DNA of 64,000 nt from Pseudomonadota bacterium (GTDB lineage Bacteria > Pseudomonadota > Gammaproteobacteria > Xanthomonadales > Rhodanobacteraceae): contig JAFEFO010000013.1 in assembly GCA_018240565.1 (NCBI GenBank), forward strand, positions 1 to 64,000. The letters run 5' to 3'. The position numbers and the translations under genes were made by a program. A model generated the notes under the pieces. It was given only the letters and a program-made list of their open reading frames with translations, was not told the DNA's origin and ran no database searches. Below are positions 30,854-46,854 of this stretch, one piece after another (position 1 is the stretch's first letter; every line of letters begins with the position of its first letter).

Positions 30854-33800
30854 TTACTGTTTTTCCAGCGAAAGCGGACCGTTCTGCATCGGCGATTCCA
30901 CTTCCGCTTGCTGCTGCGGACCTTGCGCTGACACTTCACGCGGCGTCTGCGCGGCAATGCCGGTCGCGGTTACCTGGTTGCCGTAGACGCGTACCGGAAT
31001 GTGTACGCGCGTGCCCGTCACGTAGTCGGTGCTGCCGGTGAAGTTGAGCGTGCTGTCGTTGCTCGTGCTCTTGTACCAGCCGGTCGCACCCGTGGAGGCA
31101 TTGGCACCGACGGCCGGCGCGTAGCCGCTGCTCGCTGAATTGGTCAGGGAGACGAGATCGGCATTGGCGCCCAGGCCCGAACCGGTATCGGTCAGGTACT
31201 CGATGGTGACACCGAGCGTCGCACCCGCCCCAACCGTGACCGGTGTAGCCAGCCGCACCGGCAGGATGAAGTAACTGGTGTTGCCGGCACAACCAGCGGT
31301 GGTCACCACATCCAGATTGGCGGTGACCGCGGCGATCGGCGTGGAGTTGGAGAACACCGGCGCGCCGGCCGAGCCCGCGAACGTATCCCAGAACTGGATC
31401 TTGGCCTGCACTGCAGTGAAGGTTTTCGCGGCATTGCACAGTGGCGTCAACTGCAAGCCGGTCACGCTCCACTTGTTGCCGCCTGCCGGTGCCGTGATGG
31501 TGGCGGCGTAACCGGAGAAGTTGCGCGCAACGCCCGTCGCACTGTTCAGGGCGATGGTTCCCGTCGCCGCTGTGCCGCTCGAGTTCTTCATCTGGTAGGT
31601 GTCGAGCATGATGTTCGTGCCCAGGGTCGTGAGCTCCCAGCCGAACACGTTGCCGCCGCCACTGGTCAGGTTGCCCGGCGGGTTGTCCACCCACGTGGTG
31701 CTGCCATTGGGGCCACCCGTCGAAACGAACACCAGGTCACTGGTCGAACCCGCGGTCGGCGCATTGACATACTTTTCCTGACCCAGATTCGACAACTGCG
31801 CGTCCGTGAACGTGGCCGAGGCGCCGTAGTAGTACAGGCAGGCCCAGACGTTCGCCTTGACGCTGGCCGGTGCCGGCACATACGTTGCCGTGTAGCCGAG
31901 CGGATTGGCGGTGAACGTGTTGTTCACTCCCGGGTTGATCGTGGTGCCGAAATTGCCGCCGCCATAGTACACATCGTTCGTGTTGCCCAGGCGCACGCCC
32001 GGTCCGCCGCTGGCGCCCGAATCATCGTAGAACGCGATGCTGGTGGTCGGCGCCGTCGCAAACGCCGTTGCATTGTGATTCGTCGATGTCCAGGTGAAGC
32101 TGGTGATCAACTGCTGGCCGGGCTGGGCCAGAGTGAAGCGGCTGCAGACCATCGGCGTGTAACGGTTGGAGCCAAGAACGGTCGTGCTGCCGTTGAGCAG
32201 GTCGCTGCCCGCATCGGTGCCGAGGTTGCTGTACAGGCGGTACGGATCCGGCGCCGCTACAGTCAGCGTGTCGTTCGCCGCGGCGGTGTTGCTGCCGAAG
32301 TTGGTCGCCAATGCGCCGACACCGATCTGGTTGGCATAGCTGCCTGCACTTGCGGAAGTGACGTTGACGCTCACCGTGCACGAACCGTTCGCCGGAATCG
32401 TGGCGTTCTGGCCCAGCGTGATCGAACCACTGGTCGTCGACACGCCGCTGCCGCCGGTGCAGGTGGTTGCCGCCGCTGGTGAGGCGGTCAGCACCATGCC
32501 GCTCGGGAACGTATCGGTCAGGTCGGACGACAGCGTGGCCGCGGCCGGATTATTGTTGGACAGCGTGATGGTCAGCGTGCTGGCCGCGCCGGTGTTGATG
32601 CTGGTCGGGGCGAATGCCTTGCTCACGGTCGGAGCGCTGATGCCAGTGACGGTCAGCGATGCCGATGCCGCGGCCGCATTGCCTGCGTTGGTCTGCAGGG
32701 CGCCGGCCGGGATCGTGTTGGTGTAGCTGCCGGCTGCGGAGGAAGTCACGTCCGCAGTCAGCGTGCACGATCCGCCTGCCGGAATGGCAGCGCCATTGCC
32801 CAGGATCAGCGAACTGCCGCTGCCGCCGAGGCTGGCGCCTGCGCCGCCCGTGCAGGTGGTGGCGGCATTGCTGGCAACCAGACCGGATGGCATGGCATCG
32901 ATGAGGTTTGCGCTGAGGATGGCAGGCAGCGAGTTGGAGTTGCTCAAGGTCAAGGTCAAAGAGCTGCTGCCACCGGTGACGATGCTGCCCGGCGAGAAGC
33001 CCGCAGACAGCGAGGGCGGCACGGGCGGCGTGCCGGTCACCGTGAAGCCAAGACCGGTTATGACCGTGGGCAGATTGGTGGCATTGCTGGTGATGCACAG
33101 CGAACCGGTGTAATTGCCTGCGAACAAGCCGGTCGGATCGAACGTGACCACGACGTTGCTCACGCCGTTATAGCCCAGCGCACCGCTGGTCGGCGCATAG
33201 CTGACCCAGCTTGGCTGCGTACAGGCAACGGTACCGGCCACGATGCTCGAGAGCATGGTCGGCGTGGCTTCCACGTCCTCCCACGCCGTTATCCCCCACA
33301 GCGAGCCGATGATCTGGGCGCTGTTGCCGATGACCGGATCGGAACTCACGCGCCAGGCCCACAGCGGATTGGATGCGCTGTTGCTCGCGTCCGACGTGAT
33401 ATTCGGCGCGACCACCAGCCAGTAGCGGCCGGGAGCCAGATTGAGGACGGGTACACCGGCCTTGGTCAGGTCGAGATTGATGACGCCGTTGGTCGCGGAG
33501 ATGCCATTGGCGGTGCTGATCGAGTTCGTGTAGTCGAACAGCGGCGGAGTGCCGATATTGACCGTCGGTGGATCGCCCACGGTGCCGGCCGGAACGCCGC
33601 TGGCATCCGCGTAGACCTTGAACGTGATGGCAGGCGTGTTCGCCGTCGTCAGGCTGCCGCTCGGCAGACGGAAGCCGTTCGCGGTCAACTTGGTGATCTG
33701 CGTCGGTACGGAGACGTCGAAGTTCTGGGCAAGATAGCTGCTGGCGGGAATCTTGCTGTAGTAGCCACCCAGTTCGCCATTGTTCGTGGTCGCCGTGTTC

Positions 33801-36460
33801 ATCACCGTGATCGGCGCATTGCCGGTGCCGATGGTCCAGTTGAGCGTCGGGTTGCCGATGTTGGTCACGGCCAGCGATTGCGTCACCGCACTGCCGCCAA
33901 AAGCTGCCGATGCGGAGACCGCTGACGGAGCGACCTGGATCGCCGGTCCGCCGGGCTTGACCGCTACCGGCATGTGTTGCACCGGAACGCTCGGATCACT
34001 CGGCGTGAACGTGACCTGGCCCAGCGTGTACTGACCGGAGGTCAGCATATCGCCACGAACCGTCACGGTGAACGTCTTGGTGCCGCCCGTCGAAACCGGC
34101 AGGCTCGCCGGCGCCACACTCGCTGCACCGGCGGGGAATCCATCGATGCTCAACGTGTAGGTGAGCGCACCGGCATGGACGCCACGCACCGTGCGCGTGT
34201 ACGTGCAGGGACCGACGCAGTTGCTGTCGGCGATGCTGGGCAGGTTGAGCGTCGAAATCTTGCCGCCCGTAGCGGGGTTGGCAGCCAGGAAATTCGCGCC
34301 CGTTTCATCGAACAGCAGGCTGGCCTTGGCCGCGCTCGGCAGATCGATGCGACCGGAGCCGGTGTCCCAGATGCCGGCAGGCGTCTGGTCCTGATTGACG
34401 ACGCCGGCCGTCTTGGCCGTCATCATCATCGCCGAACGGATCTGCGTCGGCGACCAGGTTGGATGCAACGCACGCAACAACGCGGCGGAACCGGCGATGT
34501 GCGGCGTCGCCATCGACGTGCCATCTTCCACGGCTGCCGCGCCCGGGTCGCCCATGTAGGCAGCGAGGATACCGACGCCGGGTGCGGCGATCTCAGGCTT
34601 GACGATCGCCTGGCCACCGATGCCGGCGGCAGGACCGCGCGAACTGAAGTTGGCGATCACATCACCCTGTGCCGTGAAATAGGCCTTGAGCGGCAGCAGG
34701 ACGGATGCGCGGGCATTGGCCGGATCGCCGACGATCTGCGCGTAGACGTTGTTCCAGTCGGAGAAGATCATCGAATACGAGGTACCCGACGCGCCCAGAT
34801 TGATGTAGGCGTTGTCGACGAAGATCACGCCGGCCGCGCCGGCATTGAGCGCATTGGCGCGCCGCGTGACGCTGCCGCAACCGCTGTTGCTGGCATCCAG
34901 GTGCAGCACGGCGATGCCCTTCTCGTAGGGCGGCGGAGTTGGCGTGGTTTCGAAGCCGTCGGCGAAGATGCGGTCCGCGCTCAGGTCGCGGTCGAACGTA
35001 TGCGCGCTGGCAAACGCGGCGCAGCCATCGTTGTTGCCGTTGGCAAAACCCGGACTCTGCGTGATCGGCAGATTCACCAGATCGCCGGTCGGCTGCGGAT
35101 TCGCACCCGGACGCACCGGCAGGCCCACGGTATTGGATGGCGGCGTGCCGGGACCGTTGAGGCTGAACGTGTAGCCGAACACCTGATCGTCGGTAGACGC
35201 AGCGGCCGTTGCCACCCAGGGTTCGACGTGGCTTACCGTCGAGGCGGCGGGACCGTCGTTGCCAGCGGCGGCGACGACGAAAATGCCGGCGTTCTGCGCG
35301 CCGAGGAAGGCCATGGAAGTACTATCGGTCCACGGCGAGGTGCCGCCGCCGATGGAAAACGTGAGGACGTCGACAATGCCGTCGGCGACCGCCTGATTGG
35401 CCGCCGCCGTGGTCGACGTACTCGGGCAGGAACCCTGACCGGTGCTGACGACCGTGTAGCAGACGGTGTATTCGATCAGCGACGCGTGCGGTGCGACGCC
35501 CTGAATGGTGAAGTTGCCGCCACTGTAGTCAATGGAGGCGTGGTTGCCGCCCGCAGTGCTCGATGTGTGCGACCCGTGTCCGTTGTAGTCAAGTGCGCCT
35601 TGTCCAACCTGCCACGTGCCGGGGGCACCGCAGGGATTTCCGCTGCCGCTGCACACGCTGTAGACGAAATTGTACAAGCCGATCAGTTTGTCATTGCAGT
35701 TGCCTGCGTCGAAACCGCCGGGCTGGCACAAGCCCAGGTAATTTCCCGCGCCAAGCGGGTTGATGTGCTGGTAGCCGTCGAGCGGGCCGACGGCGGCAAA
35801 CGACGGACTGGTGTAGTTGATGCCGGTGTCGATGTCGCCGATGACGATGCCTTCGCCCTGCGTGGCGAATCCACCCGTGGCGCTGCCGTCCCAGATCTTG
35901 TCCGCGCCGATGAAGATCGGACTGCGGTCCGTCATCAGCGGCAACATTTTTTCGATGTCAACCAGCAACACGTCGTCGCGCGCGGCGATTTCGGCGGCTT
36001 CGGCGCTGGTGAGTTCCACGACCACGCCGTTGACGGCGTGCTGGAACTGCATGATGGCGCCAAGCGGGCGCTTCAACTGCGCGCCCGCGTCGCTGAGGAA
36101 CTGGCTCTGGCGGGCCTGCAGGTAGCTGACGTATTTGGCCGCTTCCGCGGATTTCATGTTCAACCGGCCTTTGGCCAGCGGGACTTTTTCGAAGCCGGAT
36201 GTTCGGCCGTCATAGGTGGCGACCGGCTCTTCCTTCAGGATCACCGTATAGCGGGCGAGCGCGCCGTGCTGCATGTTCAGGGCAATGTTCTTGCCGGACG
36301 AGCCTTCGGTGACGACCGCGGCGCCGACACCGGGCGTACTTCGCCACAATGAAAGCGCCGAATTCGGCGGACTTGCCGACGCGCCGGAACACAAGGTGAC
36401 AGCAATGGCGCCTGCCAGCGTCAGCATACGGTGATTGCGATACGTCCGATTGACCTTCAT
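30854..36460 (-). CDS. Giant secreted S8 serine protease with DUF11-like repeats
   Basis: 1868 residues. Signal peptide ending near GASA, I9-like propeptide, subtilase domain with D211 (GDIDTGIN), H295 (GHGSHTSS) and S649 (DGTSMATPH), interrupted by a PA-like insertion carrying RIFADGFETTPTPPPYEK. After the catalytic domain come Ig-like modules, at least two DUF11-type repeats (each with SAxFxPxSI...LTLTLSN and NxATTCTGG...IPAxGSCTL), and a beta-rich C-terminal region ending in a Gln-rich tail. Repeats of this kind make long extracellular stalks. It and its neighbour share propeptide and active-site layout and are probably diverged duplicates; this one is much longer. Own leader and terminator. 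Confidence 0.93.
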   Translation of the reverse strand: MKVNRTYRNHRMLTLAGAIAVTLCSGASASPPNSALSLWRSTPGVGAAVVTEGSSGKNIALNMQHGALARYTVILKEEPVATYDGRTSGFEKVPLAKGRLNMKSAEAAKYVSYLQARQSQFLSDAGAQLKRPLGAIMQFQHAVNGVVVELTSAEAAEIAARDDVLLVDIEKMLPLMTDRSPIFIGADKIWDGSATGGFATQGEGIVIGDIDTGINYTSPSFAAVGPLDGYQHINPLGAGNYLGLCQPGGFDAGNCNDKLIGLYNFVYSVCSGSGNPCGAPGTWQVGQGALDYNGHGSHTSSTAGGNHASIDYSGGNFTIQGVAPHASLIEYTVCYTVVSTGQGSCPSTSTTAAANQAVADGIVDVLTFSIGGGTSPWTDSTSMAFLGAQNAGIFVVAAAGNDGPAASTVSHVEPWVATAAASTDDQVFGYTFSLNGPGTPPSNTVGLPVRPGANPQPTGDLVNLPITQSPGFANGNNDGCAAFASAHTFDRDLSADRIFADGFETTPTPPPYEKGIAVLHLDASNSGCGSVTRRANALNAGAAGVIFVDNAYINLGASGTSYSMIFSDWNNVYAQIVGDPANARASVLLPLKAYFTAQGDVIANFSSRGPAAGIGGQAIVKPEIAAPGVGILAAYMGDPGAAAVEDGTSMATPHIAGSAALLRALHPTWSPTQIRSAMMMTAKTAGVVNQDQTPAGIWDTGSGRIDLPSAAKASLLFDETGANFLAANPATGGKISTLNLPSIADSNCVGPCTYTRTVRGVHAGALTYTLSIDGFPAGAASVAPASLPVSTGGTKTFTVTVRGDMLTSGQYTLGQVTFTPSDPSVPVQHMPVAVKPGGPAIQVAPSAVSASAAFGGSAVTQSLAVTNIGNPTLNWTIGTGNAPITVMNTATTNNGELGGYYSKIPASSYLAQNFDVSVPTQITKLTANGFRLPSGSLTTANTPAITFKVYADASGVPAGTVGDPPTVNIGTPPLFDYTNSISTANGISATNGVINLDLTKAGVPVLNLAPGRYWLVVAPNITSDASNSASNPLWAWRVSSDPVIGNSAQIIGSLWGITAWEDVEATPTMLSSIVAGTVACTQPSWVSYAPTSGALGYNGVSNVVVTFDPTGLFAGNYTGSLCITSNATNLPTVITGLGFTVTGTPPVPPSLSAGFSPGSIVTGGSSSLTLTLSNSNSLPAILSANLIDAMPSGLVASNAATTCTGGAGASLGGSGSSLILGNGAAIPAGGSCTLTADVTSSAAGSYTNTIPAGALQTNAGNAAAASASLTVTGISAPTVSKAFAPTSINTGAASTLTITLSNNNPAAATLSSDLTDTFPSGMVLTASPAAATTCTGGSGVSTTSGSITLGQNATIPANGSCTVSVNVTSASAGSYANQIGVGALATNFGSNTAAANDTLTVAAPDPYRLYSNLGTDAGSDLLNGSTTVLGSNRYTPMVCSRFTLAQPGQQLITSFTWTSTNHNATAFATAPTTSIAFYDDSGASGGPGVRLGNTNDVYYGGGNFGTTINPGVNNTFTANPLGYTATYVPAPASVKANVWACLYYYGASATFTDAQLSNLGQEKYVNAPTAGSTSDLVFVSTGGPNGSTTWVDNPPGNLTSGGGNVFGWELTTLGTNIMLDTYQMKNSSGTAATGTIALNSATGVARNFSGYAATITAPAGGNKWSVTGLQLTPLCNAAKTFTAVQAKIQFWDTFAGSAGAPVFSNSTPIAAVTANLDVVTTAGCAGNTSYFILPVRLATPVTVGAGATLGVTIEYLTDTGSGLGANADLVSLTNSASSGYAPAVGANASTGATGWYKSTSNDSTLNFTGSTDYVTGTRVHIPVRVYGNQVTATGIAAQTPREVSAQGPQQQAEVESPMQNGPLSLEKQ

Positions 36461-36779: not shown

Positions 36780-39371
36780 CTAGTTTCCGTCGAAGCCGTC
36801 GATGAAGATCGCGTCGAGGTTCAGGCGGAATGCACCACGACCATGCGTGCAGGCCAGCACGGTGTGCGTGTCGCGATTGGCCGTCAGCGAGAACACGGCG
36901 ACGTTCGGCATGCCGTTGTTGTAGGGATACCAGGTATTGCCTTCGTCGGTCGATAGATAGACGCCGACATCGGTACCGGCCCACAACTGGCCGGGGAAAA
37001 CCGGATCCCAGGCGATGGTATTGACCGGGATGTCCGGCAAGCCATTGGACTTGGTCGTCCACGTCGCGCCGCCATCGAAGGAGATGCGCACATTCTGCGC
37101 CGGCAAGGCGCCCGTAAAGCCTGCACGTGCCTGCACCACGATCTGCGGATTGCGCGGATACACCGCGATCTGCGAGACATAGGTGCCGATCGTGCCATCC
37201 ACGCTGGAGAACGTCGCGCCGGAATTGGTGGAACGCCAGACGTTGCCGTTGCTCGTGCCAACGAAAATCGTCGTGGCATTGGTGTTGGGCACCACGTTGC
37301 GGACTGTTTCGATCGCGCTAATCACGCCGCTCGCGGTAAGCGGCGGTGTTGCCGCGCCGAAGTTGGCGGCGCCGCCGATCTTCGTGAAGATGGTGAACGT
37401 GTACGGCGCGCCAGATCCAGTCGTAAAATAGTTGATCGCGGCATTTTCCTGCGTCACCGTCTGGTTGAAATAGTCGTTGGCCATGTACAACGACTGCGTA
37501 CCGAAATACAACGTAGTCGGATTGCCGCGATCCAGCGCCATCGGCGCGTAGAACAGCACGTTGTCCGCAGCGTTCATGCCGGAGGTCTGGAAACCGGGAA
37601 TCTCGCCCGCGAAGTAGCGATAATCGGCCGGTTGCGAAGCCGGGCCGTTCAATGCCAGCGCGGCGCCGATGATGTTGTTGGACTCGTTGTAGTACGTATG
37701 CGTCACATTGCTGGGATAGGCCTGATCGATCAAGGCAAAGCCGCCGTCGCCATCATCGCTGTGCGACCAGGCGGTGGCTCCCGGCAGGGTCTGGATGTTG
37801 CCCAGGAAGCTGTCCGTGCCGTTGTCCTGCGTGCCGCCGTAGGCCTGATTCGGATCGGTTGGATGCAGGTCGCAGATCTGGAACTGGGTCAACGACAGAT
37901 TGGTGTTCGCATTCACCCAGTGCTGGCCGCGATCGGTGGAATAGAACACGCCGCCGTCATTGCCGACCCAGACCTCGTTCGGACTTCCAGGCCAACTGGT
38001 AATGGCGTGGATGTCGGCATGCAGCGCGGAGTTGCCGTCGACCCCAACCATTTCATCGGAGAACGTGGTTCCGCCGTCGGTCGTGAGCATGAACGAGCTG
38101 GGCAGCGATCCGGAAGTACCGGCGCCGCCGGTGTAGACATTGGTCGCACTGCCCGGCTCCACATACACCGGCATGTCGTAGGTGCATTGGCCCTGGCAAT
38201 AGCCGGTGGCGGCAGCAACCGCTGCCCACGTCGCGCCGTCGTCCAAAGATTTGTACAGGGTTCCATTCGCGTCGCTGGTGCCGTAATACAAGACGGTATT
38301 GCTGCCGGCATAGGTGGCCGTGATCCAGGTGCGCGTAAACGTCGTGTTGCCGATGCCCGGCAAGCCCGTGGCCACGCCGTCGACACGCGTCCAGGTTTGG
38401 CCGGAATCGGAGGATTTCCACAATGCACCACCGCCACTGCTGGGTGTGGTCGCTGCCCAGTAGTGCGTTGCGCCCGCGGTCTGGAACGACGGGCTCGGAT
38501 CCTGCACGATGCGCGAAACGCGCAGCGTGCCCGAGGGCGTCGGCAAGACCTGCGTCCAGGTGTTGCCGCCGTCACTGGAACGATAGATTCCGCGCACGGC
38601 CGCATTGGGCGGAATATCGCCTTCAATGCCCGCATAGCCGGTCGTGGATCCCGCGAGCACGACCTGGGGATTGGCGCTGTCCACCGCAATGGTGCTCACC
38701 GAACGGCCGGCAAACTGCGCGGTACCCAACGGCCCTTGCCAGGTACGACCGGAATTGGTGGACTTGTAGATGCCGATGCCGGCGTAGGTATCACCAGAGA
38801 AATTGCCTTCGCCGGTACCGAGGTAGATCGTGGCCTGGCCGGGCGCATGCGCGCCCGGCGCGATGGCGATGGAGCCAACCGCCAGCGAGCCCAGGTAATC
38901 GGTCAGCGGGGTCCAGCTATAGCCATGATTGTTCGAACTCCACACGCCGCCCTGGGCGCCACCGATGTAGACGACACCGTCGATGCCATCGATCGCGATG
39001 GCATTCGTGCGACCGGAAACGGCCGAGCGGCTCGTCGTGGTCGCGGCCGTCGGGGTCTGGCCATCGAGGATCGGCGCCGGGCCGATCGGCTGCCAGACTT
39101 CGGCGTGATACAGTGCCGCCAGTTGTTGCATGAGCGGCTTGTTGCCCTGTTCGGCGGCGAGATCGGCACGGAACTTCGAATACGCGGCAAGCCGTGCCTT
39201 TGCGGCATCGAATGTCGAGTCGTAGGGATTGATCCGGCGCATTTCGAAATACGCCTCACGCGCGGAGTTGGTGTCCGCCGCCTCGTCGTCGGCCTTGGGC
39301 ACGTGCAGGGCAACAGCGGGCAACCAGGCGATCGACAAGGCAATTGCCGCGATCAGTCTCAATGGGTTCAT
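36780..39371 (-). CDS. Secreted BNR/Asp-box (sortilin-like) beta-propeller protein
   Basis: 863 residues with a signal peptide (LIAAIALSIAWLPAVA). At least nine Asp-box repeats of the SxDxGxTW type are spread along the chain (STNSGRTW, SSDGGNTW, SSDSGQTW, SLDDGATW, STDRGQHW, STNSGATF, SFDGGATW, STDEGNTW), which form the blades of a 7- to 10-bladed propeller as in sortilin/VPS10 and glycosidases. No sialidase catalytic Arg triad or xyloglucanase acid pair could be assigned, so binding or scaffold function is as likely as hydrolysis. The C-terminus is LDAIFIDGFDGN, matching a short motif in three other secreted proteins of this window. ATG 39371 has GGAGA ten bases upstream. Confidence 0.85.
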   Translation of the reverse strand: MNPLRLIAAIALSIAWLPAVALHVPKADDEAADTNSAREAYFEMRRINPYDSTFDAAKARLAAYSKFRADLAAEQGNKPLMQQLAALYHAEVWQPIGPAPILDGQTPTAATTTSRSAVSGRTNAIAIDGIDGVVYIGGAQGGVWSSNNHGYSWTPLTDYLGSLAVGSIAIAPGAHAPGQATIYLGTGEGNFSGDTYAGIGIYKSTNSGRTWQGPLGTAQFAGRSVSTIAVDSANPQVVLAGSTTGYAGIEGDIPPNAAVRGIYRSSDGGNTWTQVLPTPSGTLRVSRIVQDPSPSFQTAGATHYWAATTPSSGGGALWKSSDSGQTWTRVDGVATGLPGIGNTTFTRTWITATYAGSNTVLYYGTSDANGTLYKSLDDGATWAAVAAATGYCQGQCTYDMPVYVEPGSATNVYTGGAGTSGSLPSSFMLTTDGGTTFSDEMVGVDGNSALHADIHAITSWPGSPNEVWVGNDGGVFYSTDRGQHWVNANTNLSLTQFQICDLHPTDPNQAYGGTQDNGTDSFLGNIQTLPGATAWSHSDDGDGGFALIDQAYPSNVTHTYYNESNNIIGAALALNGPASQPADYRYFAGEIPGFQTSGMNAADNVLFYAPMALDRGNPTTLYFGTQSLYMANDYFNQTVTQENAAINYFTTGSGAPYTFTIFTKIGGAANFGAATPPLTASGVISAIETVRNVVPNTNATTIFVGTSNGNVWRSTNSGATFSSVDGTIGTYVSQIAVYPRNPQIVVQARAGFTGALPAQNVRISFDGGATWTTKSNGLPDIPVNTIAWDPVFPGQLWAGTDVGVYLSTDEGNTWYPYNNGMPNVAVFSLTANRDTHTVLACTHGRGAFRLNLDAIFIDGFDGN

Positions 39372-39535
39372 TTTGGCGAATTCTCCGTTTGGGTTGCACA
39401 AGAAGCAGCGGACAAAACCGGCTCAATTCATCCCATACGCCACAACTTCGGACCTACGCCCATGGACGCATGCGACTGAGGCGTAAGCCTAGCATGACCG
39501 TTTCAAAAATTATATTTTTTTTATATCCAATTCGT

Positions 39536-40381
39536 ATGACGGAGTCCCGGCAATTGCGCTCACGCAGCACCAGAACCAAGCCTCGCCCGCGCCACGGCTC
39601 GCTTGCCTGCATCGGCATCGGCATCACGCTGGGCTCGCACCTGACGCCGCTGGCGCGCAGTTACCTCGAGCAAGCCGACGTGGTGTTCCTGGCCGCCTCC
39701 GACGGCATCGTCGAGAAGTGGATCGAATCCATGAATGCAGACGTGCGCAGCCTGCAGCCCTTCTACGGTGCGGGAAAATCACGGCTAAAAACCTACCGCG
39801 AAATGACGAACGCGATCCTGACGCAAGTCCGCGCTGGCAAGAAAGTCTGCGCCGCGTTCTACGGCCATCCCGGCGTGTTCGCGCGGACGCCGCACCAATC
39901 CATCCGCATCGCGCGCAGGGAAGGGTTCGAGGCGCACATGGAACCGGGGATTTCCGCCGAGGATTGCCTGTATGCGGATCTCGGCATCGATCCCGGTGCA
40001 TTGGGTTGCCAACATTACGAGGCCAACCAGTTGCTCTATTACAAACGCGCCATCGACCCGAGCGCCTACCTGATCCTGTGGCAGGTCGGCGCGCTGGGCG
40101 ATGGCGGGCGCGGCAGCGCGCTGGCCGCAACGAATGCCGCGTATCGCGAAATCCTGATCAGGCGCCTGGCGCGGGACTATCCGCTCACGCATCACATCAT
40201 CGTCTATCGCGCCGCGACCTTGCCGATCGACACGCCGCGGATCGAACGCATCGCCTTGCGCCAGCTTGCCGGCATCGACATCGAAGTGGCGGATACGGTG
40301 GTGATTCCGCCAGCGCGCAAGCTTGTGCCGGATACAAGAATGCTGCGCCGGCTGGAAAAGCTGGCCCGGGCCAAAGCGTGA
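39536..40381 (+). CDS. Borosin-type peptide backbone alpha-N-methyltransferase (SonM-like)
   Basis: 281-residue member of the tetrapyrrole-methylase fold branch that N-methylates peptide backbones (OphMA, SonM). It aligns by eye with SonM almost throughout: GSLACIGIGI at residues 21-30, then FYGAGKSRLKTYREMTNAIL, YGHPGVF (109-115), EPGISAEDCLYADLGIDPG, HYEANQLL and IPPARKLV. Residues expected to act in catalysis are kept (Y77, R83, Y87, Y109). It lacks a fused core peptide, so it is the split type acting on a separate precursor, which lies two genes on. The start at 39536 is preferred; an in-frame ATG at 39494 would add an AT-derived IIFFLYP stretch that looks like promoter DNA. The end overlaps the GNAT start. 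Confidence 0.9.
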   Translation: MTESRQLRSRSTRTKPRPRHGSLACIGIGITLGSHLTPLARSYLEQADVVFLAASDGIVEKWIESMNADVRSLQPFYGAGKSRLKTYREMTNAILTQVRAGKKVCAAFYGHPGVFARTPHQSIRIARREGFEAHMEPGISAEDCLYADLGIDPGALGCQHYEANQLLYYKRAIDPSAYLILWQVGALGDGGRGSALAATNAAYREILIRRLARDYPLTHHIIVYRAATLPIDTPRIERIALRQLAGIDIEVADTVVIPPARKLVPDTRMLRRLEKLARAKA

Positions 40382-40896
40382 TCCTCACTCCGCGCCTGCG
40401 CCTGCGCGGGCTCACCCTGCGCGATCTGGCCTTGTTCCGCGCGTTGTATTGCGATGCGAAAACCATGCGCCACATCGGCAAGCCTATATCCCCGACAGAC
40501 GCACGCGCCAGCCTTCGTGCCACGATGGCCGCGCACAAGCGCGGCGCGCTGCGGTTTTTCGTCATCGCCGAGCGCGAATCCCGCTGCGCCGTCGGGCTGT
40601 GCTCACTGCGGCCTGCCGCATGGGACGAACACGGCGCCGAGGCCGGGCTCATGCTGTTGCCCGCCGCACGCGGGCATGGGTACGCACGCGAGACGTTGCG
40701 CGCGCTGATCGAGGTGGCATTTTTCCAATTGCGCGCAAAAGCGGTTTGGGTGCAATATCGGCGCGCCAACGTGAAGATGGCTCGGCTTTGCCAGGCGGCT
40801 GGATTCGAATCTGGGTTGAAGCAAAATCCAGCGCGCGGTTGTGTGGGCTTGGTGCGCCGGTCGGGATACCGCAAAAATTCATGCAAACCAACATAG
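40378..40896 (+). CDS. GNAT-family N-acetyltransferase
   Basis: 172 residues from GTG 40378, which overlaps the methyltransferase stop as GTGA. It has the GNAT order: strand 1 LTPRLRLRGLTLRD, a strand with FFVIAERE, the conserved LMLLPAARGHGYARETLRAL (acetyl-CoA pyrophosphate loop R-x-x-G-x-G/A) and the late NVKMARLCQAAGFE. The overall style is RimJ/RimL-like. Being translated together with a borosin methyltransferase and followed 11 bp later by its presumed precursor, it may acetylate the precursor (N-terminus or lysines) or be an immunity protein; both are inference from position. Confidence 0.85.
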   Translation: MILTPRLRLRGLTLRDLALFRALYCDAKTMRHIGKPISPTDARASLRATMAAHKRGALRFFVIAERESRCAVGLCSLRPAAWDEHGAEAGLMLLPAARGHGYARETLRALIEVAFFQLRAKAVWVQYRRANVKMARLCQAAGFESGLKQNPARGCVGLVRRSGYRKNSCKPT

Positions 40897-40907
40897 GGGA
40901 ACACCAC

Positions 40908-41189
40908 ATGTCGAAAGTCATCGGATTTCTGGAACACGTCGGCGCCAACGCCGCCATGCGCCACGCCAGCCGCGAGGCTTTGCTGCGCACCCTGCAGGAC
41001 GCAGAAATCGAAAATGTCCTGCGGCAGCCGGATCGTGCGTTGCTGAATGATCTGACCGGTGCGCGTGAGACGATGTATTGCCTCAACCAATCGAAAAAAG
41101 CGCCGAAGAAAGCCCCTGCCAAGAAGAAGCCGGCCAAGAAAGCCCCAGCCAAGAAGCCCGCCAAGAAAGCCCCAGCCAAGCGCAAGTGA
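40908..41189 (+). CDS. Putative split-borosin precursor with Lys/Ala/Pro-rich tail
   Basis: 93 residues with a strong ribosome site (AGGGGA, seven bases before the ATG). Residues 1-50 (MSKVIGFLEHVGANAAM, then EALLRTLQDAEIENVLRQPD, ALLNDLTG) are helical and resemble the borosin-binding domain of SonA-type precursors: same size, same FLExxGxxAxxR start and a DxxxLxxLxGA end. Residues 52-62 (ARETMYCLNQS) would occupy the core position. The rest, 63-93, is 31 residues of K, A, P and R in KKAPAKK repeats, like histone H1 or AlgP tails. A SonA-like precursor next to a SonM-like enzyme is expected; the cationic tail is not. If it is not a precursor, it could be a small nucleoid-binding protein. Confidence 0.75.
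   Translation: MSKVIGFLEHVGANAAMRHASREALLRTLQDAEIENVLRQPDRALLNDLTGARETMYCLNQSKKAPKKAPAKKKPAKKAPAKKPAKKAPAKRK
41106..41180 (+). repeat. Tandem 18-bp repeats encoding the precursor tail
   Basis: Three copies of AAGAAAGCCCCAGCCAAG (41106, 41136, 41163; the first with one T), spaced 30 and 27 bp, encode KKAPAK. In-frame spacing means copy-number change would alter tail length without shifting frame. Confidence 0.85.
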
Positions 41190-43079: not shown

Positions 43080-45278
43080 GTGAACCTTTCCGTCCGCTGC
43101 ACGCGCGCGTTGACGCTCGCCATCTGCGCCGCGCTTTTCACCGTGCCCGCCATTGCCGCCGACCCGGCTGGCCAATCCGAATCGCCGCAGCAGCTGAAGA
43201 AGGTCGACGTCAAGGGCTATGTCATGCCCGACGACGCCAAGCCCAAGCTCGACCACATCATGAAAGAAGTGGACGGGCCGAAGATCACGGTGACCAAGAA
43301 GACCTCGATCACCAAGCTCGATAACCTGCCAACCATCATCGGCAACAATCCGCGCGAAGTGTTCGCGCAGACACCGGGCCTGTACGTCGCCGAGCAGCAG
43401 ATCGCCGGACAGGTGAACCTGTCCTATCGCGGCATCGGCAATCCGCAGGAATCCGAGTACGTGGGCGTGTTCCAGGACGGCATCCCGCTGGAAGGCGACT
43501 GGATCGGCTTCCCGACGTTGTACGTGTTCCCGTTGCCGCAGACCATCGCGCAAGTGCAGATGATCCGTGGCGGCTCCTCGCTGCTGTACGGGCCGGAACC
43601 GCCGCCGGCAATCAACCTGGTCAGCGCGAAACCGTCAACCGCGCCGATGGCCGGCTACACCGAAAACGTGATCGGCAACAACGGCCTGTTCGCCAGCTTC
43701 AACAAGGTTTCCGGCACGCAAGGCAACTGGGACTACCTTGCCGATGCGCACTACCGCACCACCGATGGCCAGCGCGACAACGGCGACGCCAAGCTGCGCG
43801 GCGCGGATCTGCACATCGGCTACCGCCCCGACGAAACCGCATACACGGCGCTGGATTTCCATGCCTACGACCTGGATACCGGCAGCCCGGGTCTGCTGAC
43901 CTATCCGCAGTACACGGCCAATGCCGACCAGACCGCGACGCCCTACGACCGCCTGTGGACGCAGCGCTACGTGTTGAGTCTGTCGCACGAACGCCACCTG
44001 GACGACGACACGCAATTGTTCGTGAAGGCCTGGACGGGTTACCAGGACCAGGCCTCGCGCGCGCAGGACCGCGGCGCGGCGCCGACCACGACCACGTTGC
44101 AGGACGAACAATTCCGCTTCAGCGGAATCGATGCGCGCCTCGTGCATCACTGGGGTCGCGGCAATGCCTTCACCGTCGGCACCACGTTGTACCACTCCGA
44201 TGCGCCGTTCCGGCAATGGGATGTGTTCGGTCTGGACGCCGATGAATACGATCGTCCGGGCGTGGCCTGCGCGTCGCCGGCGTCGACCAACTGCGCCAAA
44301 TTGCGCCAGGGGCGTTCGACCAACTACGGCGCGGTGTTCGCGGAAAACGTGTTCCGCTTCGCCAACCAGTGGCACCTGGTGCCGTCCGTGCGCCTGGAAC
44401 ACGAACAGGTGAACATCGACGAGACAATCAAGCCGCCGACCCTCAATCGCGGCCTCGTCGATCGCTCCGTCAGCCACAACGTGCCGCTGTTCGGCATCGG
44501 CGTGGGCAACGACTTCGGCCATCTGAACGAGAGCTACTTCAATGTCTCGCAAGGCTGGCGCCCGGTGCGCTATTTCGACATCGGCTCGCCATTCGGCGCT
44601 ACCAATTCCGGGCCGTTGAACGATCCGGATCCCACGCATGTGCTCAATTACGAGCTCGGCGTGCACGGCGTGCCGGTGCAAGGATTGTTTTATGACGTCA
44701 GCGTGTTCCAGGTGAACGTGAAGGATCGCATCGAGTCGCAGCAGGTCACCGGCCAACCGCTCGGCAACACGATCAATGTCAACACCGGCGACACGCGCAG
44801 CCGCGGTTTTGAGGGCGAGGTGTCCTACGACTTCCTGCAGGCCCGCGACCTGCACACCTCGCAACATCTGGCCGTGTTCGCCAACCTGACCTTGCTCAAT
44901 GCCGAGTTCACCTCGACGATCAACCCGGCCAACCTCGGCAATACGCCGGCGTTTTCGCCGAAGTACCTGGCGCGCGCCGGCATCACCTACCGCGAGGACA
45001 AGCACCTCAAGCTCGCGCTGTCGGCGGTGTCCGTCGCCAGCCAGTATTATTCGGATGCCAACGTCGCCGCCGGCGCGCCCTTCCTCACGCCGGCGAAGGT
45101 CCCGTCGTATGCGGTCGCGGATTTCTCCGCCGACTACTGGGTGCTGCCGCAGCTGCGCCTGCTCGGCGGCGTTTCCAATATCACCGACAAGCGCTATTAC
45201 TCGCGCGTGTTCTTCTCCGGTGGCATCGATCCGGCGCCGGGGCGGATGGTGTACGCGGGATTCGCCTACGAGTTCTGA
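43080..45278 (+). CDS. TonB-dependent outer-membrane receptor (FecA-like)
   Basis: 732 residues from GTG 43080. Signal peptide (TLAICAALFTVPAIA), TonB-box-like LKKVDVKGYV, plug domain (NNPREVFAQTPGLYV, LSYRGIGNPQESEYVGVFQDG, IRGGSSLLYGP) and a 22-strand barrel ending in the aromatic FAYEF. The plug layout is like FecA-type ferric dicitrate receptors, but substrate cannot be read from sequence. The signature is complete with no frameshift. A two-component pair follows 145 bp downstream; no FecR/FecI pair is adjacent. Confidence 0.92.
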   Translation: MNLSVRCTRALTLAICAALFTVPAIAADPAGQSESPQQLKKVDVKGYVMPDDAKPKLDHIMKEVDGPKITVTKKTSITKLDNLPTIIGNNPREVFAQTPGLYVAEQQIAGQVNLSYRGIGNPQESEYVGVFQDGIPLEGDWIGFPTLYVFPLPQTIAQVQMIRGGSSLLYGPEPPPAINLVSAKPSTAPMAGYTENVIGNNGLFASFNKVSGTQGNWDYLADAHYRTTDGQRDNGDAKLRGADLHIGYRPDETAYTALDFHAYDLDTGSPGLLTYPQYTANADQTATPYDRLWTQRYVLSLSHERHLDDDTQLFVKAWTGYQDQASRAQDRGAAPTTTTLQDEQFRFSGIDARLVHHWGRGNAFTVGTTLYHSDAPFRQWDVFGLDADEYDRPGVACASPASTNCAKLRQGRSTNYGAVFAENVFRFANQWHLVPSVRLEHEQVNIDETIKPPTLNRGLVDRSVSHNVPLFGIGVGNDFGHLNESYFNVSQGWRPVRYFDIGSPFGATNSGPLNDPDPTHVLNYELGVHGVPVQGLFYDVSVFQVNVKDRIESQQVTGQPLGNTINVNTGDTRSRGFEGEVSYDFLQARDLHTSQHLAVFANLTLLNAEFTSTINPANLGNTPAFSPKYLARAGITYREDKHLKLALSAVSVASQYYSDANVAAGAPFLTPAKVPSYAVADFSADYWVLPQLRLLGGVSNITDKRYYSRVFFSGGIDPAPGRMVYAGFAYEF

Positions 45279-45423
45279 AGGAACCTGCTACGCTCGGCAT
45301 CTCGCGTGCCGGCAGTGCTCGGAATCCTCACATACGCAAAAGTATGCTCCGGTTCCTGCGCGCTGGCGACACGCGACCTGCCTTCGCTCGCGACGGTTCC
45401 TTTGAGGTTTCTCGAGGCTGCGC

Positions 45424-46854
45424 ATGAAACCCCTGCGTCCGCAATTGCGCGGACTGATCTTCAAACTCACCGTCTTCTACGTACTGCTGTCGGTACCGTG
45501 CCTGGTGCTGGTGGAGACGGGCTTGCTCACGTTCGAGTTCGACCGCTTCATGTCCGGCGTCGAGAACGGTTCCCTGGTGCAAGCCACCCGCACCGCCGCG
45601 GACGATCTGGAACAACGCTGGCCGCAGATGTCCGGCGTGCCGGCCAACCTCGATCTGTGGAGCGAGGCGCTGGTGCTGCGCCTGCAACGTCCCCATGGCG
45701 ATCTGCTCGCGCAGGACTCCTATATCCTCACCGAATTGTCGTCCAATCCCCTTGGCGCCTCGGTGTTTACGCCGGACGGTCGCATGCTCGCCGCGGCGCC
45801 GAAGTCTGCCGCCGCATCCGCGCCTGATGCAGCCACATGGCGCGAGTTGGTAGCGCATGCCGGCGACCTGGTTCGCGTGGCAGATTCTCCCTACCGCGTG
45901 CGGCGGGTTTTGATGCCGATTCGTGCAGCCGCGAGCCCGCTCGACGGTTACCTTCTGGTGGAATTGCGCTTGCCGGTTCCCTGGCATCGCCTGTTGTTCG
46001 ACGCCACGCTGGAATGGCCGATCGTACTCGGTTACCTGATCCTTTTCGGCATCGCCTCGTCATTCTTCCTCGTCGCCTGGGTCACGCGCCGGCTCAATCG
46101 TGTGGCACGCGCGGCCACGGCCTGGAGCCGCGGGGATTTTTCCGATCGCATCGGCGATCCGTCACGCGACGAACTCGGACGCCTGTCGGCCCTGCTCGAT
46201 GACATGGCGCTGCAGCTCAAGGACTTGCTGCGCTCGCGCGCGCAACTGGCCACGCTCGCCGAACGCCAGCGCCTGGCGCGCGACCTGCACGACACGGTCA
46301 AGCAGCAGGCGTTCGCGCTGAACCTGCAACTGGCCACGCTGCGGCGCCAACTCGGCACGCATCCACAGGCGGCGCGCCTGGCACAAGCCGAAGCGCTGAG
46401 CGGACAGATCCAGCACGAGCTCGCGCAGATCCTCGACGAGCTGCGCGCCGGCGATGCGCAGCTGCCGCTGGCCGAACGCTTGCGCGCACGCGCGCAAGCC
46501 TGGTCGCAGACCAGCGGCATCGCCCTTGATCTGCAACTGCACGACGTCACCGTGCCCCCCGCCACCGCCGAACACCTGTTGCGCATCCTCGACGAGGCAC
46601 TCGCCAATGTGCTGCGGCACAGCGCGGCGAGCCGCGTACAGGTTACGCTCGATCGCGATGAATCCGGCGCAAGCCTTGCGGTGACGGACAACGGCTGCGG
46701 CACGGCTGTACCGCCGCGCACCGGCATGGGCATTGCGAACATGCGCGAGCGTGCGCAGGCACTGCCGCACGGCCGCTTCGAATTCGACGGTACGTCGGGC
46801 AATGGCACGCGCGTTCGTGTACATTTTTCCCTTGCCGAGGACGATCACGCATGA
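45424..46854 (+). CDS. NarL-type sensor histidine kinase
   Basis: 476 residues. Two membrane helices (about 12-32 and 199-220) flank a periplasmic sensor of about 165 residues of no recognised family. A HAMP domain follows (RLNRVARAATAWSRGDFSDRI), then a HisKA_3 dimerisation domain with phospho-acceptor H289 (ERQRLARDLHDTVKQQ) and an HATPase_c domain (DEALANVLRHSAAS, VTDNGCG, GMGIANMRERA). This is the DegS/NarX architecture. It overlaps the regulator by ATGA. The upstream gap contains CATAC-GCAAAA-GTATG (45331-45346), an inverted repeat of unknown role. Confidence 0.94.
   Translation: MKPLRPQLRGLIFKLTVFYVLLSVPCLVLVETGLLTFEFDRFMSGVENGSLVQATRTAADDLEQRWPQMSGVPANLDLWSEALVLRLQRPHGDLLAQDSYILTELSSNPLGASVFTPDGRMLAAAPKSAAASAPDAATWRELVAHAGDLVRVADSPYRVRRVLMPIRAAASPLDGYLLVELRLPVPWHRLLFDATLEWPIVLGYLILFGIASSFFLVAWVTRRLNRVARAATAWSRGDFSDRIGDPSRDELGRLSALLDDMALQLKDLLRSRAQLATLAERQRLARDLHDTVKQQAFALNLQLATLRRQLGTHPQAARLAQAEALSGQIQHELAQILDELRAGDAQLPLAERLRARAQAWSQTSGIALDLQLHDVTVPPATAEHLLRILDEALANVLRHSAASRVQVTLDRDESGASLAVTDNGCGTAVPPRTGMGIANMRERAQALPHGRFEFDGTSGNGTRVRVHFSLAEDDHA

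Follow-up and report, generated by a model that had tools for sequence, protein, structure and literature searches.

Split borosins of type IV are represented by SonM/SonA of Shewanella oneidensis (PMC8429565), in which the methyltransferase is accompanied by a separate small five-helix precursor. Mutation of SonM showed that Y58, R67, Y71 and Y93 are important for catalysis or cofactor binding, SonA was methylated at L63 and I65, and as of 2021 none of the type IV borosin pathways was tied to a final product (PMC8429565). The five-helix binding domain of SonA comprises residues 1-53. The locus described here lies in a window of 64,000 nucleotides (the whole stretch of DNA that was analysed, to which all positions refer) from a genome of 3.0 Mb in 45 contigs. 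It shares with SonM/SonA the same active-site residues and a separate precursor of the same kind, and differs from it by an overlapping GNAT acetyltransferase gene and a lysine-rich tail on the precursor. The core also differs, being TMYCLNQ in the window and YLVI in SonA, and SonA ends shortly past its core whereas the precursor of the window runs 30 residues further. The fungal fused borosins OphMA and dbOphMA share with the window a homologous methyltransferase domain (1e-47), but here the precursor is on a separate gene within a bacterial operon. In the Shewanella relative S. corallii (L059) a TPR-GGDEF gene is placed 3' of the precursor, as in the window.

The GGDEF domain is listed in the figure of borosin architectures of a 2024 overview (PMC11395268, legend of Fig. 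1); the association of borosins with GGDEF may thus not be wholly new and part of the link may be known, while a TPR sensor, an exchange of output, repeated units and a part in signalling do not come up in the accessible portion of the text of that overview. A full-text search of the available literature found no paper in which borosins are mentioned along with either a diguanylate cyclase or a tetratricopeptide protein; the main reports on types 0 and V-X fell outside the scope of this search, and an earlier mention of the GNAT or TPR-GGDEF linkage is possible.

Gene organisation and identity of the locus

The features of the locus are as follows.

39536..40381, plus strand: borosin-type alpha-N-methyltransferase, 281 aa, with SonM/OphMA homology and a conserved active site
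40378..40896, plus strand: GNAT acetyltransferase, 172 aa, GTG start (Pfam Acetyltransf_3, 6e-26)
40895..40899, plus strand: ribosome-binding site AGGGG of the precursor; AGGGG or a close sequence is kept here in relatives
40908..41189, plus strand: borosin precursor, 93 aa, with a profile match to SonA-type precursors and five predicted helices
41222..42997, plus strand: 591-aa protein with a predicted signal peptide, a TPR solenoid, one membrane helix and a diguanylate cyclase domain (Pfam GGDEF, 1e-41)

The first three genes had been placed at 39536-41189 in a preliminary description of the locus, and the analysis found them real and their positions to hold. The junctions given there were also recovered: the methyltransferase stop and the GNAT start overlap in a shared GTGA, and the GNAT stop is separated from the ATG of the precursor by 11 nt. 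The stop codon TAG of the GNAT (40894-40896) overlaps the ribosome site AGGGG. The three genes had further been said to look like one operon. They are indeed contiguous and co-conserved, but the end was set too early, as the operon reaches 42997 and its fourth member, the far more conserved TPR-GGDEF gene lying 32 nt past the precursor, had been missed. A chance locus was excluded since relatives in the genus keep the precursor at 61-82% and the methyltransferase at 68-81% identity. The methyltransferase and the precursor co-occur in the identical 9 of 16 genomes of the genus of the window, and both are absent from the other 7. An operon comprising methyltransferase, GNAT, precursor and TPR-cyclase can be taken as firm and is very probable. 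The sigma-70 promoter scan of the operon gave no match, and terminator-like sites within it were no commoner than in shuffled sequences.

The identity of the methyltransferase was analysed against the PDB using phmmer. The search gave SonM at 6e-70 spanning residues 21-272, which bears out the likeness over nearly the full length claimed previously, and the fungal OphMA-type enzymes at about 1e-47, while the best cobalamin-type match, cobalt-precorrin-4 methylase, reached only 4e-4. The alignment placed Y77, R83, Y87 and Y109 on Y58, R67, Y71 and Y93 of SonM, and the motif YGHPGVF was present, confirming every residue and motif that had been reported as retained. These four active-site residues are conserved in 159-160 of 162 related methyltransferases, a count in which a few genes enter twice through overlapping loci. 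With the TP_methylase enzymes only the broad Pfam superfamily is shared, and the NCBIfam scores are far under the cut-offs. A cobalamin or siroheme (precorrin/uroporphyrinogen) methylase was ruled out by the difference between 6e-70 for SonM and 4e-4 for the precorrin methylase; grouping with the precorrin methylases was checked, and the enzyme was found to group with SonM/OphMA instead. Because this grouping, a precursor profile matching SonA-type proteins only, and contiguous, co-conserved genes come together, the locus is assigned as a split borosin with firm, near-certain confidence. The original reading of a SonM/OphMA-type enzyme with a separately encoded SonA-type precursor is thereby supported.

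Precursor, putative core and charged tail

The precursor is encoded apart from the methyltransferase with its own ribosome site and consists of a binding domain or leader (residues 1-53), a putative core ETMYCLNQS (about 54-62) and a lysine-rich tail (63-93). As a single sequence it gave nothing against PDB and Pfam, and against NCBIfam no borosin signal appeared but only noise from the lysine tail. A profile was then made from a 23-row alignment of relatives found beside related methyltransferases. Searched against the whole PDB, this profile gave 7 matches, all of them SonA-type borosin precursors, with a best E of 0.0021 and the best SonA-type match spanning profile positions 1-65. The AlphaFold model showed helices at residues 3-13, 15-18, 22-31, 35-38 and 43-50 and no structure beyond 50, with a pLDDT of only 72; this pattern agrees with what the five-helix domain of SonA would predict. 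Foldseek and VIA-align returned no matches with this low-confidence model, and it is the sequence profile and the number of helices that carry the binding-domain assignment. The likeness to the SonA binding domain proposed earlier for the first 50 residues is therefore real through the 23-sequence profile (E 0.002), and too weak from one sequence.

Judged by its sequence, the 93-aa protein is a genuine borosin precursor, and the methylated core is probably a short stretch past the binding domain, about TMYCLNQ. With G51 set on SonA G55, the methylated L63 and I65 of SonA fall near C58/L59 and N60/Q61 of the precursor, alignments varying by one residue. The same place elsewhere in the family is occupied by very different short cores, such as VCCMLVPA, PQATQSF and PPQSTQTPGHEEE, mostly followed by acidic tails. 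The net charge of the tail was at least +10 in 6 of 110 distinct precursors, all from the genus of the window, and -4 or lower in 70 of the 110. Two further genomes of the genus (L171, L172) carry lysine tails too, and the charge lies between +9 and +16 in every examined genus member having a methyltransferase of the cationic clade. The methyltransferases of the cationic-tail group form one clade with a support of 100/100. This charge distribution together with the single clade reveals the tail as a clade-specific charge swap and not as the segment that the cores share; in this genus KKAPAKK stands where relatives have an acidic tail, with the charge inverted.

The GNAT gave as best PDB matches the spermidine acetyltransferases (spermidine N1-acetyltransferase), at only 8e-4 to about 1e-3. 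Of 99 related loci, 23 carry a comparable GNAT directly beside the methyltransferase; it is placed 3' of the methyltransferase in Rhodanobacteraceae, Bowmanella and Alteromonas and 5' of it in Lysobacter, Luteimonas and Kangiella. Most of the GNAT-bearing loci have precursors with acidic tails, which indicates that tail lysines are dispensable for the GNAT and for the pathway. The acetyltransferase and the cationic tail, named side by side in the preliminary description, are not tied to each other, as GNATs recur and occur with acidic-tail precursors also. The proposal of a lysine-tail-specific acetyltransferase is weakened by the same occurrence.

Two minor observations were made among the related loci. 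A second small binding-domain-like ORF (L059:4490-4729) is located upstream of the Shewanella corallii methyltransferase and has relatives in ten loci. A Dyella-like borosin locus in a record titled Candidatus Eremiobacteraeota (L041) falls within the Dyella sequences of the tree, so that either mis-binning of the contig or a transfer is probable.

The TPR-GGDEF gene and its association with the precursor

The fourth gene encodes a predicted periplasmic TPR sensor with a cytoplasmic diguanylate cyclase domain, in which the motif GGEEF is intact. A homologue of this TPR sensor, encoded on the same strand, was found in 91 of 99 related methyltransferase loci, the 99 being those having at least 2.7 kb of downstream sequence and including a few loci fetched twice from different collections. 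The association spans several gammaproteobacterial families (Shewanella, Alteromonas, Bowmanella, Kangiella and Lysobacter) and Undibacterium, where the sensor is upstream. Of the eight loci without it, one (L095) is a long precursor array in which the sensor lies further on as found in L154, another (L141) is arranged divergently, and the remaining six are those of distant methyltransferases. Clustering of the neighbours gave the TPR sensor at 80 loci, with 74 for the methyltransferase and 52 for the GNAT/precursor cluster; the clusters that come next resemble antisense frames or further small proteins of the binding-domain kind, and no conserved transporter or immunity gene was found among these neighbours. 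The genome of the window has 16 GGDEF regions, only 2 of which match into the TPR part, so the probability of chance adjacency is well under 1%.

Among the related loci, units of precursor and TPR-cyclase are duplicated (L173 is ordered methyltransferase-A-DGC-A-DGC-A-DGC, L172 has two units, and L039 and L167 are similar). In two Luteibacter-type loci (L154 and L155, from G112 and G120), 11 and 7 precursors with differing cores are lined up in tandem, flanked by a single methyltransferase and a single TPR-GGDEF sensor. At four loci a hybrid histidine kinase replaces the GGDEF domain with the TPR part kept (L145:7135-9987, L146:7061-10306, L148:1275-4499 and L151:6746-9703, the last on the minus strand). 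As the GGDEF domain is swapped while the TPR part is kept, the TPR domain is the constant partner of the precursor. The duplicated units, precursor arrays and output swap are characteristic of a sensor whose output can be exchanged.

The TPR model has a pLDDT of 93. Over about 300 residues it aligned with the RRNPP receptors Rap, NprR and AimR at Z 19-22, a similarity of solenoid shape to be read against a generic fold, since eukaryotic TPR proteins match as well or better and APC subunits reach Z 27. The sensor of the window differs from the RRNPP receptors in its signal peptide, membrane helix and GGDEF domain, whereas those receptors are cytoplasmic with a phosphatase-type helical or HTH effector domain. 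Membership in the RRNPP family was rejected on account of the predicted periplasmic TPR part, the membrane-protein character and the GGDEF output. Two cysteines are invariant among 34 TPR sensor sequences, which fits a periplasmic domain.

Proposed function and alternative explanations

The locus is proposed to be a four-gene split-borosin operon whose N-methylated peptide modulates the TPR sensor and hence c-di-GMP, a reading to which roughly even chances are given. The precursor would dock on the methyltransferase by its five-helix domain, and methylation would fall on a single backbone amide, or on a few of them, immediately past this domain, around C58-Q61 of TMYCLNQ. The GNAT may acetylate the precursor or the product made from it. 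Either the matured peptide or the modified precursor would reach the periplasm, bind the TPR domain and alter c-di-GMP synthesis. The lysine tail would be an auxiliary segment for solubility, export or surface binding, substituted for the acidic tail that relatives carry.

The role of the peptide as ligand of the TPR sensor, derived from gene arrangement and sequence, is tentative and somewhat short of even odds. It is favoured because the units duplicate, arrays share one sensor, the TPR part survives the output swap, the likeness to Rap, NprR and AimR exists and the cysteines are invariant. Counting against it, no exporter or precursor signal peptide was found in the operon though a periplasmic location is predicted for the TPR part. 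A complementarity of charge linking the tails of precursors to TPR domains was unsupported (Spearman -0.20, p = 0.11; Mann-Whitney p = 0.14). The proposed function as a whole is also weakened by the generic TPR fold, by the precursor model that Foldseek left unmatched and by the six distant methyltransferases that lack the sensor. The broader scheme, a Gram-negative peptide signalling in which N-methylated borosins are ligands of periplasmic TPR receptors with c-di-GMP or phosphorelay output, and in which precursor-receptor units multiply and diversify like pheromone-receptor pairs, is likewise tentative and would more probably fail than hold. The operon link to a membrane receptor predicted to synthesise c-di-GMP suggests that this peptide class may act as a signal rather than an antibiotic. 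The near-universal TPR sensor, the swappable output and the co-duplicated units would point to a concrete function, an N-methylated ribosomal peptide controlling c-di-GMP, with possible consequences for biofilm or motility. Additional steps of processing are indicated by the cationic-tail clade and by the recurrent GNAT.

The product may otherwise be an ordinary split borosin metabolite (antimicrobial, metal-binding or another secreted compound), with the cyclase coordinating production or lifestyle and not sensing a peptide. This is unlikely, though it deserves weight, as fungal borosins are metabolites, type IV has no known product (PMC8429565), and an aspartyl protease able to release a product adjoins the Alteromonas, Bowmanella and L137 loci. 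It agrees poorly with a TPR sensor more constant than any tailoring gene, with the duplication of this sensor along with precursors and the retention of its TPR part under histidine-kinase output, and with the lack of a conserved transporter or immunity gene among the locus neighbours.

Two other explanations concern the precursor and its GNAT. A fusion of the two may be translated in the genus, with an internal start adding free precursor, so that the separate genes of the window would be a secondary split. In six relatives (L003, L004, L005, L006, L007 and L172) the GNAT frame indeed carries on into the precursor with no stop, and the internal ATG is preceded by a ribosome site. These genomes are closely related, however, and a single inherited accident may account for the open frame; in the window the frames differ and a TAG inside the ribosome site separates the genes, and the GNAT loci examined from other genera have separate genes. 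The fusion is accordingly held improbable, and read-through as a general architecture was rejected, being confined to the genus of the window. A little more improbable again is the modified precursor itself as effector, its histone-H1-like lysine tail binding DNA, polyphosphate or lipopolysaccharide and the GNAT tuning it by tail acetylation. The tail charge of +9 to +16 in all examined genus members of the cationic clade is in line with such a role, as is a weak NCBIfam link of the tail to Rv3852-type basic tails, but elsewhere the same operon, GNAT-bearing cases included, has strongly acidic tails.

Shewasin A reportedly cleaves a borosin precursor. Pepsin-like aspartyl protease genes, candidates for a maturation protease, were located beside borosin genes at L051:3646-4947, L058:3714-4997 and L137:4079-5416; such a shewasin-type gene is beside the borosin genes of Alteromonas, Bowmanella and L137, and none adjoins the locus of the window. 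Divergent from the operon, on the minus strand, are a large subtilase with DUF7933 repeats (30854-36460) and a sortilin/BNR-repeat protein (36780-39401), and this pair, or parts of it, recurs beside the loci of some genus relatives. Directly 3' of the operon, on the plus strand (43080-46854), a TonB-dependent receptor and a HAMP/HisKA_3 sensor kinase are encoded, which are probably separate from it.
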